Shown one piece after another: positions 1 through 28,100 of a stretch of DNA of 45,305 bases; within the stretch, counting starts at the first letter, position 1; each line of letters starts with the position of its first letter. Where the stretch lies: the IMG/VR virus record IMGVR_UViG_3300009529_000013, positions 1 through 45,305 of that record; one strand, given 5' to 3'. The notes beneath the pieces were generated by a model, which did not search any database, was not told the origin of the DNA, and saw only the letters and a list, made by a program, of their open reading frames with translations. The stretch comes from a virus. A program made the position numbers and the translations under genes.

Positions 1-3000
1 TAGGTAAATATGTCCTAAACCATCCTGCATATCTATTCTCTGAAACTTCAGATCTTCCTTTATTTTATTATGAACATCAAATATTTGTTGGGGTGGTCCT
101 GCCAGTTTGATTGTTTCATCAGAACTAGCAGCCTTATTAACTCTGCTAGATTTATCCCTAACCGCTTCAGATATATTGCTGTAAATAACCTTTAGAATCT
201 CTGGCATTTTACCCTCTATGGCTTCTTCTTTGAACCTCAAAATCCTCCATCCTATATTGGCTAAGACCTGATCTCTTTGTTGGTCGTGAATCTTTTGGTC
301 TATTTGTTCGTGCCAGATCTCGCCGCATGTTTCAATACCGACACCCACGTCAGGATATGCAAAATCCAAAACGTAAGGTTGAGGTTGACCTGCGGTGGCT
401 ATCTTGTACTGCAAAAAGAACTTATAAGGAATTTGTCCAGACAACATTGATAGTCCATTTAACATCTTCTGTTCAAGGGTAGTCAGTCTTATATTCTGCA
501 TACTCTGCTGGAACTGTTGAGCCTGTTGTTGTGCTTGTTCCTGCTGTTGTTCTGCCATAGACTTTCCACCTTTTCCTCTTTTACTTATAAAGGAGGGTGC
601 TGGTGAAACCGGTTGAGCCGCTGCCATCGGTGCTGGCATGCCTCCTGGTGCCGGTGGTGCTGCCCCTGGCATCCCCGGTGGTGCTGCTCCAGGCATTCCA
701 GGTTCTCCACCCGGCATTCCAGGCATCCCTCCACCGCCTAGATCCATTGGTGGCATTCCTCCACCCATACCGCCACCCATTGGCATACCACCCATACCGC
801 CCATACCACCTTGTGGCTGTCCAAGGAATTGTCCGGTAGCAGAAGCCAAAGCATTTTCTTCTCTAATTCTTCGTGTTTCCTGATCGTAATCGATATCGAA
901 CTCTTCCAACAATCTTTGAGCGGAAATCAATCCCTTATCATGTAACTGCATAAGAATTTGTCTAAAATTAGTTCTATCACGAAGCTGTAGGTCATTCCAT
1001 TTTAATTTTGGGTAAACAAACACGTCTTCACCAGCTTCTTTGCTCTCTTCCTCATCTTTGAAATTCTGCATCATTGCAATAGGCAAGAAAATGTGATTTT
1101 CAACCCATTCTGCTAATTCATTTCTCCAACTCTCTAAACGAGCAATCATAATTTCAATACCAACTTGTGCAGAGTTACCTTGAATTGTAATTTGACCATT
1201 TCTCATCGTTACAAATAATCCATAAGGAACTTCAAAACAGTAAACCTTTCCCTTATAATGTTTCTTTGTTATTTCTTCGTGATCATCATAAATTGAATAT
1301 TCTTCTTGCCCAATTTTAATGGTTTTTTGATAGTTTCCGGCATACCCCTCTACTGCACCAATAAATTTTGCCCTTGCTTTTACGTCTTTGGCTTCTATAA
1401 ATCTATACTCATCAGAATCCCTTTTGGCACTCCACATCCTGTGGTTCGGCGTTACTAAAATATCCATCTTATCAGTATTAAAATGTATCATTTCTCCGTC
1501 ATAATCATAAACCATTTTTTTATAAGGAGAATGATATTCTATTTCTTTTGTATCGGGGTTATAACATGCTATCTTATCAACTTTAGGATCTATATCATCG
1601 TATTTTTTGAATCCCGAATCACATAGAGTAAGTGTATCTTCACTGTGGCAACTATAACCACTCGCCTCACCGTTTAGAATAGCCTGATTTAACATAAAGC
1701 CATCTAGGATTTCCTTGCCAATTTCTTCCAATTCATTAGTGAGATTATGAATCTTACCAGAATTGCCTTGTACAGAGATCATTCCATTTCTACGGACAAT
1801 GAGCATACTATTAGGAACTTTTACGCAATATACCTTACCAATATAATCGGGTCTATGTATATGTTGTTTTCTTATATTAAATTTTACATCTTTACGCCTT
1901 TCTGACCAGTATACACGATACATATTTTTATGTTTCAAATGGGTTTTATCTTCTACTGATGTATTAGCAAAATATCCAATCTTTAAACATATTTCGGATA
2001 CATCATCTGCCAATTGTTTAGAAGTTGTGCTGTATTTGTATCTGGGTGTAGACCCGTCATTTCGTCTAGTCCCATCTCCGTCCATCAAGGCATCAAGCAA
2101 AATTTGTAATTTTTCTTTCGGCAAATTTTTAATCCACTGCGGTATTCTCTTGTTCTCTGAACCATGTCCACATTCGTTGAACAAATGCCTAGCTATGATA
2201 CAACTATTAATGGCAAAATTAGCACAGACGCTTTTATGCCTCGCCCCAATTCTATTATCTTTATAATGAGAATACTTCGGATATACCTTTTGTACAGTAT
2301 CAGTTATACTGCGATTATGTACGCTATTTTGATTTTGGTATATGTTGCAATCTACAATCTGTTTTCCCCCACTTAATTGTAGATACCTTTTTATACCATC
2401 TTTTCTTTTATATGGTATTCTTTTTATTATGTGCGTGGACCCTTCGCTAACAAAATATCCAATAAATTTCAAATACGTATCTAAATCAACATCTTTCATA
2501 TTATGTTCTTTGTATGGGAGATATTCTGGAATAGATCCTGCCCAATTTAGCGTAGAAACAAATTTGTCATTATGTTTTACGTCCTGGGAATAAACTACCT
2601 GTGTTTTGCCTTTTCTTTCTATCAACATTCTGTGATTTGGCGTTACCATAACATCAACGGATCTACGTTTAAAATGATACATCTGAGAGAATGTAGTAGA
2701 ATCATAATCGTATTCATTATATTCTGTTGGTAATTGGTACTCCAAATGTTTATTATCCATATTGTATGTGGCAACTTTTTCATCTTTTTCAAGTTCGTTA
2801 AAATACTTCCATCTATTCTCTGTAAGAATTTCTGTATCCTCTGAATGACAAGCTCCTTCCCAAGAGTAATCGAAATTATTATGAGTAACAAGTGTCAGGT
2901 TAGGATCATTGGAAACAGCTACAAGTTGAGATGAAACATCTGCGATATCGGCGGCAGTAGCTGGACGGCTGTCCGATCCTAATTTAACAATACGAATAGG

Positions 3001-6000
3001 AAGAATTAATCTTTCAGCAACAATCCAGTTTGCTGTCATTAATTTTGTCTTGTATGCTAAATATGTAAACATTCTACGAATAATAGATGTTCCATAAGCA
3101 CTATATGGACTACCACCATATTTAATATGACTCATATTTCTATTGGACAATACAATTGGCTGCCCAGTTGAGACTGACTCAATTAGAGAAGCAGGTAGTT
3201 TGCTATATATAGCTTCTGGTCTTTTGGTGGCGATAATGCCTTTTAGCTCATCATCTGGTTCAAGCATATAAACTGCTTCTTCTGACATTGGGTTCTTGTG
3301 GACCGTGATCCAGTCTGGGTTTAATACTTTAATTTTACTAACCGTTCCACCTGGGTGATTACACTCGGTTCCATCTAGCAGTGCGTGTCCACCACACCTT
3401 TCACATTCATATTCTACAAATGGGTACACGTCACCTAATAAATGTCTCTCAAATCCAATTGCTTTAAGCCAATAATTCAACTTAAGTCTTTTGACAGTTC
3501 TCTCAAAAAACTTCAATATCTTTTTGTCTTTACATTCTAAAACAAATCCATTAAGTGGAAATTCGGAGTTATGAACAGCAATTCTGTTAGCAATATAACT
3601 ATGTTTGTTGCTAATTGTCAAATCAAACACGTCACCAGAATATCTCTGTGTTTTTATATCATTAATTTTTCTATAGATATATTTGCCTTTAACAATATCA
3701 TCGTCAACAGAATACTGACTATTTTCGTCTGTTTCATAATTTATTGGCGTTAATAAATAATCTCCAACTTTTAATGTTCCTACTTGTACAAAATCTATCT
3801 GCCCATCTTTCTCAGTAAGGACTTTATGTCCAGGTGTTACTTTTAATGTATCCTGACTGACGCCCTCAATTTCTATGGCAAGTATTTCTTCATCTACATA
3901 TTTTTTATGAATTTCTTCCACACTATTGACAGTGCCATCATGACTTCTGACTAAATCGTCTTTTTTAATCGAAGATATAGATTTCTGTGATCCATCTACC
4001 ATTAATATTTGCGTAGCAGGAACAAAACAATAAAAATCCACACCAGCCGCCACCTTTGGCTCGTTCGAATTATGAACAACACATCTATTAACACAATAAC
4101 TATGTTCCCCTTCTAATTCCAAATCATACACTTTTCCTTCGTAATATTTTTCGCGGATAGATGTAATTTCATGATATATTTTATTTTTAGTTTTTATGGG
4201 TGGAGTATATAATCTATCCCCCACTCTTATCTCTGATGCTTCAACCCATTTTTCCTCAAAATCCAAATCGTCATATTGATGTTTTTCCCATTTTTTTTGT
4301 TTGACGATTGGTATTTCGTGTGAACTAGTCACATTCATTTCTCTATTTATTCCACCGGCTTTAATAGATAAGATATTCTCGGAAATATCTCTACTGTGAA
4401 TTTTTTTAATAGGACTAATATTCCCAGTACCATTAATAACTTCATCTCCTTCCGTTAATTCATCTATTCTTTTTTCCGTACCATCTCCCATCAGTACTAA
4501 AGACTCTGGAGTAAAACATTGATAGAACCTACAATTAGAACAAATATACCCATCTGCAACTAAGGCATGACGACTATTAGTCATTTCTATGTCATAACCT
4601 TTGCCGGTGTAGTAAAACTGCTCTATTTTTGATATTGGTTGAGCAAAATATATTTGTCCATCTTCTTCGTAGAAAAATTTTAATTCTCTTGATGTTTTCG
4701 GCGTAAAATCTTCGGGGATTTTATCACTTCTCATGTATGGCCGTAATTTTTTGACTTCAGAAGAAGGGATAAAAATCCTATAACACCATTCTAATGTTGT
4801 TGGATAATGATCTCCATCCAAAGGATATTTATTTAATGAACAAGATATCCCACAAGATAATAATAGCCAGTATAATTGATCCGCCATATCCTTAGAATAA
4901 TTATTTGCTATTAGTTTTGTTTCTTTTTTGTCAAACGAACTATCTCCATCAAAATAACCAGCAAGAACGTGTAATCTAGTTTCTTTATCTAGTGAAAAAA
5001 TTTCTTGTGTAAATTTTTTATTAATACCTTTATTTGTGATGTATTTTAAGAAAAAAGAACATGTTGCCGACGTAGTAGCACTCACTCGATATCCATTCCC
5101 ATCACCATGTTTTTTTCTACTTATTTTTCCTTCAAACTCATTATTTAATATTTTTTCACATTCATCGAGATGCTTTTCTCTGCTATCACCGGTAAATCCA
5201 ACAAAATGGTATGCATTTTTTTTGGAACATAATGTACCATCAGCAATGCATAGTCCAACCAACCAAGCAAGATCAGATTGAATATTTTGAGTTCCAACTT
5301 CAGGAACGGGACAAAGTAAATAATCATTACTTTTAACATTCTGTGCTTCTACTTTCTTTATTAAATCATCGGGGACAATAACTTTTTTTACTCCATTTGG
5401 TTTAATCCCAACTTTTCGTCTATGTCTTGTAGCATCTTCTACTGATTTCTTTTTCCTATAAAGATCTCCATCTAACACAAAGATTTTATGTTCTTCACTT
5501 ATTCTTAATTCTCTCCAATACCCATAAGCAGAAAAACTAAAACATCTTTTATCAACGCATTCCCTTTCCGAGAAACGAGGAGGTTTACTGAAATTTCCCT
5601 CTGAATCCATGATCTCAGGATAATCTATGTTCTCATAAAGAAGTCCACCAGTCAATGTGTCTTCAATCAAATTTTCACAAGAAAAACTAACATTTTCCAT
5701 ACTCTGATAAGTGAAATCATTCATAAGTACTTGTGTATAAAGGAGATACGTCCACTGATAAATTTCTCTTTTTTTACTAGCAATTTGCCAATTTTGAGGA
5801 GTATGGAGTGGTGAGAAGAACATTGGCTGGCCATACATCACATTTGGAAGACCGCCGCCTCCTCCTCCCATTGCCTGTCCTGTTTTTGTATAGGCTTCTA
5901 CAACGCTCTTCGTTAGTGGTGTATCAGCATTACCTGATGATGCGTAATGTTGTCCTTCGAACTGAGATGATCCAACACCTTTTGAATAGGCTGAGAATTT

Positions 6001-6042
6001 CCTCTTCACTTGTCTATTACTCATAGAGAATTTAATTCCCAT
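1..6042 (-). CDS. Phage portal protein with five inteins and a C-terminal DUF559/Vsr-like nuclease domain (C-terminus beyond window)
   Basis: The portal forms the dodecameric DNA gate at the capsid vertex. I translated the whole frame by hand: it is open from ATG 6042 to base 1 (2014 codons, no stop) and continues off the left edge. AAGGAT lies 8 nt before the ATG. Removing five inteins joins extein pieces of 97, 5, 13, 239, 37 and at least 391 residues into a portal-like chain: NWQIASKKREIYQW, CRFYQ, SNEPKVAAGVDFY, SEFPLNGFVLECK and onward. A CxxC-CxH cluster (ECERCGG...TECNH) lies at about 3319-3390. The tail is a Gly/Met/Pro-rich linker (about 600-830), a Gln-rich helix (about 485-565), then a DUF559/Vsr-like nuclease domain (about 170-420: DFAYP, IETCGEIWH, RDQVLANIGWRILRF). 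The portal call rests on extein resemblance and on sharing a minus-strand cluster with the terminase; the intein calls are much firmer. Confidence 0.85.
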   Translation of the reverse strand, partial: MGIKFSMSNRQVKRKFSAYSKGVGSSQFEGQHYASSGNADTPLTKSVVEAYTKTGQAMGGGGGGLPNVMYGQPMFFSPLHTPQNWQIASKKREIYQWTYLLYTQVLMNDFTYQSMENVSFSCENLIEDTLTGGLLYENIDYPEIMDSEGNFSKPPRFSERECVDKRCFSFSAYGYWRELRISEEHKIFVLDGDLYRKKKSVEDATRHRRKVGIKPNGVKKVIVPDDLIKKVEAQNVKSNDYLLCPVPEVGTQNIQSDLAWLVGLCIADGTLCSKKNAYHFVGFTGDSREKHLDECEKILNNEFEGKISRKKHGDGNGYRVSATTSATCSFFLKYITNKGINKKFTQEIFSLDKETRLHVLAGYFDGDSSFDKKETKLIANNYSKDMADQLYWLLLSCGISCSLNKYPLDGDHYPTTLEWCYRIFIPSSEVKKLRPYMRSDKIPEDFTPKTSRELKFFYEEDGQIYFAQPISKIEQFYYTGKGYDIEMTNSRHALVADGYICSNCRFYQCFTPESLVLMGDGTEKRIDELTEGDEVINGTGNISPIKKIHSRDISENILSIKAGGINREMNVTSSHEIPIVKQKKWEKHQYDDLDFEEKWVEASEIRVGDRLYTPPIKTKNKIYHEITSIREKYYEGKVYDLELEGEHSYCVNRCVVHNSNEPKVAAGVDFYCFVPATQILMVDGSQKSISSIKKDDLVRSHDGTVNSVEEIHKKYVDEEILAIEIEGVSQDTLKVTPGHKVLTEKDGQIDFVQVGTLKVGDYLLTPINYETDENSQYSVDDDIVKGKYIYRKINDIKTQRYSGDVFDLTISNKHSYIANRIAVHNSEFPLNGFVLECKDKKILKFFERTVKRLKLNYWLKAIGFERHLLGDVYPFVEYECERCGGHALLDGTECNHPGGTVSKIKVLNPDWITVHKNPMSEEAVYMLEPDDELKGIIATKRPEAIYSKLPASLIESVSTGQPIVLSNRNMSHIKYGGSPYSAYGTSIIRRMFTYLAYKTKLMTANWIVAERLILPIRIVKLGSDSRPATAADIADVSSQLVAVSNDPNLTLVTHNNFDYSWEGACHSEDTEILTENRWKYFNELEKDEKVATYNMDNKHLEYQLPTEYNEYDYDSTTFSQMYHFKRRSVDVMVTPNHRMLIERKGKTQVVYSQDVKHNDKFVSTLNWAGSIPEYLPYKEHNMKDVDLDTYLKFIGYFVSEGSTHIIKRIPYKRKDGIKRYLQLSGGKQIVDCNIYQNQNSVHNRSITDTVQKVYPKYSHYKDNRIGARHKSVCANFAINSCIIARHLFNECGHGSENKRIPQWIKNLPKEKLQILLDALMDGDGTRRNDGSTPRYKYSTTSKQLADDVSEICLKIGYFANTSVEDKTHLKHKNMYRVYWSERRKDVKFNIRKQHIHRPDYIGKVYCVKVPNSMLIVRRNGMISVQGNSGKIHNLTNELEEIGKEILDGFMLNQAILNGEASGYSCHSEDTLTLCDSGFKKYDDIDPKVDKIACYNPDTKEIEYHSPYKKMVYDYDGEMIHFNTDKMDILVTPNHRMWSAKRDSDEYRFIEAKDVKARAKFIGAVEGYAGNYQKTIKIGQEEYSIYDDHEEITKKHYKGKVYCFEVPYGLFVTMRNGQITIQGNSAQVGIEIMIARLESWRNELAEWVENHIFLPIAMMQNFKDEEESKEAGEDVFVYPKLKWNDLQLRDRTNFRQILMQLHDKGLISAQRLLEEFDIDYDQETRRIREENALASATGQFLGQPQGGMGGMGGMPMGGGMGGGMPPMDLGGGGMPGMPGGEPGMPGAAPPGMPGAAPPAPGGMPAPMAAAQPVSPAPSFISKRGKGGKSMAEQQQEQAQQQAQQFQQSMQNIRLTTLEQKMLNGLSMLSGQIPYKFFLQYKIATAGQPQPYVLDFAYPDVGVGIETCGEIWHEQIDQKIHDQQRDQVLANIGWRILRFKEEAIEGKMPEILKVIYSNISEAVRDKSSRVNKAASSDETIKLAGPPQQIFDVHNKIKEDLKFQRIDMQDGLGHIYL
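602..816 (-). repeat. Gly/Met/Pro-rich low-complexity linker in the portal
   Basis: The portal frame here encodes GGM, GGMP and PGMPGAAPP units, a flexible linker between the portal core and the C-terminal nuclease-like domain. The opposite strand also stays open here as Pro/Ile-rich shadow frames, which are a side effect of the biased composition. Confidence 0.8.
1174..1650 (-). mobile_element. Portal intein 5 (159 aa mini-intein)
   Basis: It is inserted 37 extein residues after intein 4, between GEASGYS and SAQVGIE. It starts CHSEDTLTLCDSG, has block B LVTPNHRMW and ends MRNGQITIQGN before Ser+1. It has no endonuclease domain. The first six residues are identical to intein 4 and the last eleven are nearly so, which makes it a likely endonuclease-free relative of intein 4. 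Confidence 0.93.
1762..2850 (-). mobile_element. Portal intein 4 (363 aa, LAGLIDADG endonuclease)
   Basis: It is inserted between extein DYSWEGA and SGKIHNL. It starts CHSEDTEILTENRW, has block B MVTPNHRML, and carries two LAGLIDADG-type motifs: FIGYFVSEGST near 2450 (Glu in place of the usual Asp) and LLDALMDGDGT near 2080. It ends RRNGMISVQGN before Ser+1, so the penultimate residue is Gly rather than His. Its N- and C-terminal blocks match those of intein 5. It is probably a complete mobile intein. Confidence 0.93.
3568..4029 (-). mobile_element. Portal intein 3 (154 aa mini-intein)
   Basis: A mini-intein inserted 13 extein residues after intein 2, between VDFY and SEFPLNG. It begins CFVPATQILMVDG, has block B KVTPGHKVLT and ends NKHSYIANRIAVHN before Ser+1. 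There is no endonuclease domain. It is a sibling of intein 2 by its termini and length. All standard splicing residues are present. Confidence 0.93.
4069..4518 (-). mobile_element. Portal intein 2 (150 aa mini-intein)
   Basis: A mini-intein without an endonuclease domain starts only five codons after the end of intein 1. It begins CFTPESLVLMGDG, has a block B TxxH (NVTSSHEIPI) and ends GEHSYCVNRCVVHN before Ser+1. All canonical splicing residues (Cys1, TxxH, His-Asn, Ser+1) are visible, so it is expected to be active. Its ends resemble those of intein 3 (CFxP...LMxDG; HSYxxNRxxVHN), suggesting shared ancestry. Confidence 0.93.
4534..5751 (-). mobile_element. Portal intein 1 (406 aa, LAGLIDADG endonuclease, Thr at position 1)
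   Basis: This intein lies between extein YQW and CRFYQ. Its N-terminal block (TYLLYTQVLMND) aligns with the usual CxxxDTxVLM pattern, but residue 1 is Thr (codon ACG) instead of Cys or Ser. The block B region reads RISEEHKIFV, with the His present but Ser in place of the usual Thr. Two dodecapeptide motifs of a LAGLIDADG homing endonuclease are present: WLVGLCIADGTL near 5250 and LAGYFDGDSSF near 4960. The C-terminal blocks read YDIEMTNSRHALVADGYICSN followed by Cys+1, with Ser as the penultimate residue. Splicing chemistry with Thr1 is not established; the boundary is inferred from the expected continuity of the portal extein. Confidence 0.85.
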
Positions 6043-25115: not shown

Positions 25116-28100
25116 TCAATTACATTTAGACCATCCACAACTAATACAGAAAGCACATCCTTCTTTTCGTTGTAATTCTCCATGGCAGATTTCACATTCC
25201 ATACCTTGTATTTTTGTTCCATCTTTAATATATTTTTTCAAGGCCCTAGCAATTGACTTAGCAAAACTAGTTAAATCTCCTTGCGTTTTTTCAAGTTGAT
25301 GAACAACAAATTGAATATCTGCTCCATGACGTAAGGCGGTTGAAATAATCCTTGTTGTTACTTCTTCTTCATCGGTCTCGTATTGTATAATGTTTTCTAT
25401 CGTATTACCATTCTCTAATTTTAAATCATATTTGCCTCTTTTAACTTTAATAACACTACCATGCTTCATATTTTTCGGTATGTTGCCATTTTTACCAGCG
25501 AAAATTTCATATGGGTCTTTGTATTCTCCAAAAACTCCAACACAAACAAAATATTGTTCACCCTTGACTGTGATATGGTGAATATCACAAGGTAATTCTT
25601 TGGGTCTTTTTGGAGACTTGTTCTTCGTGATTGTATTCTCTGTTGACAGGGTTCTGAGATCTTTGATTAAGACCCCAGTTCTACATCCATCTCTGTAGAT
25701 TGTAATGCCCTTACACCCGCAATTCCAGGCTGTTTCATAAATTTCTTTAACTTCATTTACTGTTACATCTGATGGGAGGTTGATTGTGCTACTTATTGAA
25801 TGGTCTACCTCCTGTTGTATGGTTCCCTGTAATTTAATTCTCATTTTCCAATCTAGTTCTTCGGCTGTATTATTATGCCATGGAGATTTACTTGGGTCTG
25901 TTTCGTTATTAACTCTCATCCATTCCAGCATCGCCTCTGGATATACCTCAAAATGCTGCCATTTATCTCCGTTTGGATCAACGTAATCAACTCTGACATT
26001 CTCATCATTAGCATTAATTTTAGTGCGTCTAATAATTTTCTGCGTAGAATATTGAGGCTCAACTCCAGATGATGTTCCGAAAGAATCAACCAAAGAAGCC
26101 AATAGAGAAACAGTTCCTGCTGGAGCCAATGTCAATAACGCTATATTTCTACGTCCATATTTGGTCATATTATTGTATAATTCCGCACCACTAACAGATT
26201 TTTCTCCAAGAAGTATTGCTTCATCTCTAATCCTATTAAGATATGGATTGTCCTTTTCTAGTGCGTGGTTCCAAATCTCAAATGGTTCTAGAGCCTTGGC
26301 CATATCTACAGAAGACTGATATGCTGCAAATTTGAATGTCCTGAATATCCTCTCAGCAGTTTTAATACCTTTTTGAGTTCCGTACTCGACACCAATGGAT
26401 GCCAACGTATCACCTAAAGCGGTTAGTCCTGTCCCAGTTCTACGTCCCTTAGTTAAAGTTTCTTTCACTTTTTGCCATAGATGTAATTCTCTTGCTTTGA
26501 TAAAAGAATCTTCTGGATCATTTCTGACTTTTTTAATAATCTTCTTTAATGCTTCTTCTTCTAAATCGATAAGGTCGTCAGCGAGTCGTTGAGTTATTTT
26601 TACATGATTATAGAAATCCTCATAGTCAAAATATGCCTCTTTCGTATAAGGATTTTTAACAAAACCAAATAGATTAAGAAGCATTAGGATGCAAGAACCA
26701 TAAGCGCTCAAAATTAATTCGGCACAGGGATTAACACCGACTGTTGCAAATCCCCAGGAAGCATAACAATCAGAAATGCTTTCCTTTAAAATATTGTCCC
26801 ATAGCAGAATTCCAGGATCTGCCACGCGATGGGCACTGCGAATAAGCTTATCCCATGCCTTCTTCGCATCAACCTCTTTAGTTATCTGTGGATTATCGGA
26901 ATCAACTGGCCATCTTTGTTGATATGTTTTTCCTTTCTTAACCGCTTCCATAAACTCGTCTGTAATTCTCACTGAAATATTTGATCCGGTTACTTTCGTT
27001 GAATCATACTTTGACGTAACAAAATCTATTTTATCAGGGTTAAAATGTTGAGAAGAAACAGTAAAACTCCCATATTCTCTACTATTAATTTCTATATCAT
27101 ATGGTTTTCCATCAACTTTATCATCCCACAATATAACGCACTCAGGGTGATGAATAGATATGCTCTGCATACTGGCTCCACGACGATTTCCCTGACCAAC
27201 TTCCCTTGTTGTATTAGAAAAACGGCACATAAATGGGATGATTCCAGTAGATGTACTTGATGAATTTGTAGTAGGTGTTTTGTTGGGTCTTAACTTCGAA
27301 ATATCAAGGCCACAATTATGGATATTTATCAATCCGACACTCCCAGCATAATAATTGTTATTATCTTCCACAGAAATGTCTATGTAATCATATTGTTTAT
27401 CTACAGATTCTATAGATGATACCTTAACTCGTTGCATAATTTTAGTTTTTCCAGCACTGCCATCTCCAGCGTGGGCACCAATAAACCATTCTAAATCATT
27501 CTGCTCATCACTATCATTAATGTTGTCAAATTTCTCGGACTCTGGAATGATTAGAATGTCATCATTTTTAACTTCACCGGCTTTGATATAGACATGTTTA
27601 TTATCTTTTAACACCGAAATTGGATGTTTTACAGAAGTATATATTGAAGAACCATGTGATGTCGTTATTTTAATTTGGTCTTTTTTCCTCACTTCGGTAT
27701 AATAATGGTCCAAAATCTTTTTATACTCATCTTGCCCAGTATTTATATTATATGACAGTATCATATCACCGATATTGACATCCTGAATTTCAACAAGCCC
27801 TTTATTTTTGATATCAACATAACTGTCTGATCTTACGCATCCCCCTCTGCGTTTTGAAATTTGAGCTATCTCTTCATCCGCTCTGCATATTCCTCCGTAA
27901 CTATCTTCTGGTCCTGGAATTGCGAAACAATTAGCAAGAGAAACATACTGAGTGTTATTTCCAATCCCATACATTGGAGATCCTTGGGGTATAACCTTTT
28001 TAAATTTATCAAGAAGTGTAAAAATTTCATCTTCTGTAAGTGGTGGAGTTTTAGTATCTTTATACTTTTTCTTTTCTATTCTTGCGAATTCTTTTGCCAT

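Follow-up and report, generated by a model that had tools for sequence, protein, structure and literature searches.

The portal protein gene of a virus recorded in 45,305 bases (the window, i.e., the whole stretch of DNA that was analyzed) raises the question of whether, and by which route, an intein can splice when it begins with threonine, at a position where cysteine, serine or alanine is expected. The initial annotation had placed this threonine, noted the missing penultimate histidine and left several readings side by side, among them splicing started by Cys+1 and a splicing-defective intein whose cleavage is tolerated. The element, intein 1, has 406 amino acids and reads TYLLYTQVLMNDFTYQ...YICSN, followed by Cys+1 as the first residue of CRFYQ and then by intein 2, in the following arrangement:

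1–6042, minus strand: portal protein open reading frame, open beyond the window edge (phrog_16240, E 9.3e-17)
5752–6042, minus strand: portal N-extein, ending in REIYQW
4534–5751, minus strand: intein 1, a Hint splicing domain with an inserted LAGLIDADG endonuclease domain, Thr1...Ser405-Asn406 (AlphaFold2, VIA-align)
4519–4533, minus strand: extein CRFYQ, five residues, between intein 1 and intein 2

The portal reading frame is interrupted by five inteins in all (4534–5751, 4069–4518, 3568–4029, 1762–2850, and 1174–1650), the first three being separated by exteins of just 5 and 13 residues. Inteins 4 (1762–2850) and 5 (1174–1650), both on the minus strand, combine Cys F:4 with Cys1 and have a penultimate Gly (QGN before S), while a sixth intein (Cys1...HN before C) lies in the ribonucleotide reductase at about 27300–27850. 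A restriction-endonuclease-like domain, DUF559 / MTES_1575 (Pfam E 5.4e-8 and 1.4e-6), is found in the C-terminal part of the portal (1–1173, minus strand), which is unusual on a portal protein.

The boundary of intein 1 was examined in 64 loci obtained from a scan with the portal C-extein. Intein-free portals have QIASKRREIYQW at the site, followed by A, S, C or V and then RFYYENEPKVA; they read through the junction, and the insert is therefore exactly Thr1 to Asn406. The N-extein adjoining the junction is conserved, and the same position after Trp is occupied in twelve other loci by inteins starting with Ser (11) or Cys (1) and ending in Gln, hereafter the HQ family, and in L032 by a canonical Cys1 intein ending in KN before S. 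A boundary elsewhere, with Cys or Ser at position 1, was sought in the intein-free portals and not found, and a shift to a nearby Cys or Ser was ruled out by the empty alleles together with the three other types of intein that occupy this junction. The structural register agrees with both lines of evidence. Intein 1 with short flanks was modeled at pLDDT 88.1 and pTM 0.89 (AlphaFold2), the model matches the TliVMA intein structurally (VIA-align; 7qsu, Z 31.3, 332 residues, rmsd 3.6), and residues 1–454 of PI-PfuI (1dq3, Z 22.8) align to model residues 8–413, i.e., Thr1 to Asn406; PI-SceI was likewise aligned. As the junction is fixed and the model aligns Thr1 to residue 1 of solved inteins, there is no hidden Cys or Ser at position 1, and the threonine start given by the initial annotation holds.

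With a Hint fold in the model and a precisely removable boundary in the empty alleles, the element is an intein, even though Pfam detected LAGLIDADG_3 alone, and no intein splicing domain, in its sequence. TliVMA and PI-PfuI share its fold and two-domain architecture, but they are class 1 inteins in wild type and only 14–18% identical to it. The class 2 KlbA precursor 2jmz also matched (Z 16.9, rmsd 2.6, 166 residues), a score tied with those of many other inteins, so that the fold singles out no intein class.

Scans with intein 1 and its profiles yielded 16 distinct relatives inserted at this site, which together with intein 1 make up the SN family (17 members). The residues compared between them are located in intein 1 as follows:

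5749–5751, minus strand: A:1, codon ACG, Thr1
5542–5544, minus strand: Cys70, kept in just 10/17 members and rejected as a universal nucleophile
5497–5499, minus strand: B:7, Ser85 (Ser 14, Thr 2, His 1 in 17 members)
5488–5490, minus strand: B:10, His88, invariant (17/17)
5236–5256, minus strand: LAGLIDADG motif 1, GLCIADG
4942–4959, minus strand: LAGLIDADG motif 2, GYFDGD (Pfam LAGLIDADG_3, E 1.6e-10)
4591–4593, minus strand: F:4, Asp387, not Cys, invariant (17/17)
4534–4539, minus strand: G:6-G:7, Ser405-Asn406, invariant (17/17)
4531–4533, minus strand: Cys+1, proposed initiating nucleophile (Cys 15, Ser 2 in 17 members)

In agreement with the initial annotation, intein 1 has an open frame and both LAGLIDADG motifs. 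The conservation of the catalytic residues holds down to 36% identity within the family, Trp at -1 likewise never varies (17/17), and position +1 is occupied by Cys in intein 1 and 14 relatives and by Ser in the other two (L005 and L072). Position 1 behaves differently: it is Leu in six members, Gln in three, Thr in two, and Lys, Glu, Asp, Met, Val or Ser in one each, and never Cys or Ala. Its entropy of 2.78 bits (vs. a column mean of 1.47) makes it more variable than 92% of the columns, with a comparable spread in just 7% of them, and even close sisters differ there (Lys in L006 and Leu in L007; Leu in L044 and Met in L060; Asp in L009 and Ser in L010). Thr1 can hence not be upheld as a special nucleophile, since 14/17 members have L, Q, K, E, D, M or V instead, the exceptions being intein 1 and L004 (both Thr1) and L010 (Ser1). 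The penultimate His is indeed absent, the residue there being Ser, but this is no sign of damage because Ser G:6 is invariant in the family and typical of KlbA class 2 inteins (PMC4031507).

One member, L072 (L072:3858-4946; Leu1, Ser+1), has a body shortened to 363 amino acids by a deletion after block B and a LAGLIDADG motif 2 minus an acidic residue (GYLDGVGS), with all splicing residues kept, and is possibly a step towards a mini-intein. The scan of genome contigs recovered no SN-family relatives in isolate genomes, and the phage collection held no close relative of intein 1, only a distant terminase intein of the uncultured crAss-like phage cr118_1.

Class 2 inteins have been characterized by the lack of Cys or Ser at position 1, by Cys+1 and Ser G:6, and by a need for His B:10 and Asp F:4; all those known at the time of that review were KlbA orthologues with Ala1 (PMC4031507), and direct attack is described only from KlbA orthologues in the open-access literature, with class 2 features taken from reviews (PMC4031507, PMC3196547). 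The SN family has a +1 nucleophile, His B:10, Asp F:4 and Ser G:6 in 17/17 members each, and thus resembles KlbA of Methanococcus jannaschii and its orthologues, with which it also shares the Hint fold and, in 14/17 members, a position 1 without Cys, Ser or Thr. Unlike KlbA, it resides in a phage portal protein without KlbA orthology, is highly variable instead of Ala at position 1, is large with a LAGLIDADG domain, has Ser+1 in two members and mostly Ser at B:7, a place at which Ser and Thr serve equally well in the AceL NrdHF intein (PMC7891396). The family is class 2-like in its proposed working but is kept apart from the KlbA type, as class 2 in the strict sense implies Ala1 and a KlbA host.

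Class 3 inteins, such as those of mycobacteriophage Bethlehem DnaB and AceL NrdHF, likewise occur in phages and need no nucleophile at residue 1, but they require Cys F:4 within the WCT motif; intein 1 has Ile90 at B:12, Asp387 at F:4 and Cys404 at G:5, neither Trp B:12 nor Cys F:4 was found among the 17 members, and Asp F:4 (17/17) together with the absent WCT excludes the class 3 route. Bacterial intein-like domains lack a +1 nucleophile, while Cys or Ser+1 is found here in 17/17, and an intein pseudogene is at odds with the open frame, the invariant catalytic residues and a dN/dS well below 1.

Together, these features point to direct attack by Cys+1 as the simplest account of the SN family, and among the options raised initially, splicing initiated by Cys+1 is the one best supported by the family's conservation pattern and its class 2 signature. 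By means of His B:10 and Ser B:7, the Hint domain would strain the peptide bond between Trp(-1) and Thr1, and Cys+1, activated by Asp F:4, would then attack this bond directly, giving the block G branched thioester of the class 2 route. Cyclization of Asn406 would release the intein, and an S-to-N acyl shift would leave YQW-CRFYQ, as in intein-free portals. Residue 1 would be free to vary because it is merely a leaving amine when Cys+1 attacks directly. We infer the order of these chemical steps, and the occurrence of splicing itself, from the anatomy of the intein, and on sequence grounds we regard intein 1 as probably a functional, mobile member of a phage-portal family that does not use residue 1 and follows the class 2 direct attack. 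Ser+1 in two relatives counts against this proposal, being a weaker nucleophile for attack on an amide, and so does the fact that direct attack is known only from KlbA orthologues (PMC4031507, PMC3196547). A bolder version, in which the family would be an independent direct-attack lineage not derived from KlbA, with a chemically irrelevant residue 1, hydroxyl attack by Ser+1 in L005 and L072, and help from Asp31 and Thr34, is tentative and, in our judgment, rather doubtful. Both residues lie near the N-terminus and are specific to the SN family (17/17 and 16/17, respectively), being absent from the HQ family.

The HQ family (L024, L025, L027, L049, L069, L073, L076, L112, L115, L119, L122, and L124) offers an internal control at the same site. 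It forms one supported clade (100/100), is homologous to the SN family from end to end (hhalign probability 100, E 1.7e-42) and is linked to SN members by tblastn (E 1e-18 to 1e-27). Its inteins share the insertion junction, His B:10 and Asp F:4 with intein 1 but differ from it by Ser1 or Cys1, a C-terminal Gln and mostly His G:6, a class 1 signature. Position 1 is Ser or Cys in all twelve (Ser 11, Cys 1; entropy 0.41), a contrast with the SN family that gives a Fisher p of 2.5e-7 when not corrected for the tree. Cys is the first residue in all eight relatives at the intein 3 site and in the other five inteins of the phage (the remaining four of the portal and that of the ribonucleotide reductase). 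Since these groups keep Ser or Cys at position 1, the missing first nucleophile is peculiar to the SN lineage. HQ inteins (Ser1...Gln before Cys) also have invariant cysteines after block B, a possible metal site, and in LAGLIDADG motif 2 a Gln instead of the first Asp (AYIQSDG). An AlphaFold model of an HQ member, built from 7 sequences, was of low quality (pLDDT 66.8) and was excluded.

The same comparison bears on the reading in which Thr1 is itself the working nucleophile, so that intein 1 and L004 would perform the N-to-O acyl shift of class 1. Some definitions of class 1 admit Ser1, Thr1 or Cys1 (PMC5222942), and Thr1 matches this wide sense; intein 1 and L004 are 80% identical and have Thr1 in common, and the distant HQ sister family uses Ser1. 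Thr1 is nevertheless not conserved across the SN family, position 1 is neither Cys nor Ser nor Thr in 14/17 same-site members, whose other catalytic residues are equal, and L005, with Leu1 and 57% identity, matches intein 1 in block B and at the C-terminus (...HALVADGY.CSN). A working Thr1 would thus require two mechanisms within one family, and we hold it to be improbable.

Selection and mobility were assessed within the SN family and along the portal tree. For intein 1 and its closest relative, L004, dN/dS was 0.27 in both the N-terminal splicing part and the endonuclease part, with zero amino acid changes in the C-terminal splicing part, and other SN pairs had values of 0.08–0.21 with saturated dS; these ratios indicate purifying selection on the splicing domain. 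Along the supported branches of the portal tree, the family label switches at least four times, in keeping with a mobile intein. The +1 residue was Cys or Ser in 14/14 SN-occupied alleles vs. 15/32 empty ones (Fisher p 5e-4, ignoring kinship), an association that was not significant after correction for relatedness, where about 2 of 7 pairs were informative (nucleophile/no nucleophile) and none went the wrong way.

These results also weigh on a splicing-defective intein, which would cleave or stay in place in a phage that tolerates its portal in pieces. Non-conservative replacement of the position-1 nucleophile blocks splicing of class 1 inteins experimentally, and one decayed intein pseudogene is known (PMC3196547). 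That pseudogene, however, has lost His B:10 and Cys F:4, whereas the SN family keeps His B:10, Asp F:4, Ser-Asn and the +1 nucleophile, the last of which C-cleavage driven by Asn alone would not need. The N-extein beside the junction is conserved, and the window and the records of ten relatives, all of them possible fragments, revealed no further copy of the portal gene. A defective intein fits the invariant residues and the purifying selection poorly, and we judge this explanation similarly improbable. Least credible is a new internal nucleophile initiating in a class 3-like manner from elsewhere, for which the SN-specific Asp31 and Thr34 could be invoked, but F:4 is always Asp, B:12 never Trp, and no Cys column is conserved family-wide; Cys70, the best internal Cys candidate and promising in the first seven sequences, is replaced by Ala, Ser, Ile, Phe or Tyr in 7/17.

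If the SN family splices by direct attack of Cys+1, as we consider probable, its members would be candidates for this route outside KlbA, with a free residue 1 instead of Ala1, which would be new with respect to the open-access literature. An intein that accepts any first residue could serve protein engineering. The reason why other inteins fail at direct attack has been described as not fully determined (PMC4031507), and the homologous SN and HQ families, which share one junction while only one of them drifts at position 1, would provide a natural experiment on what permits it.
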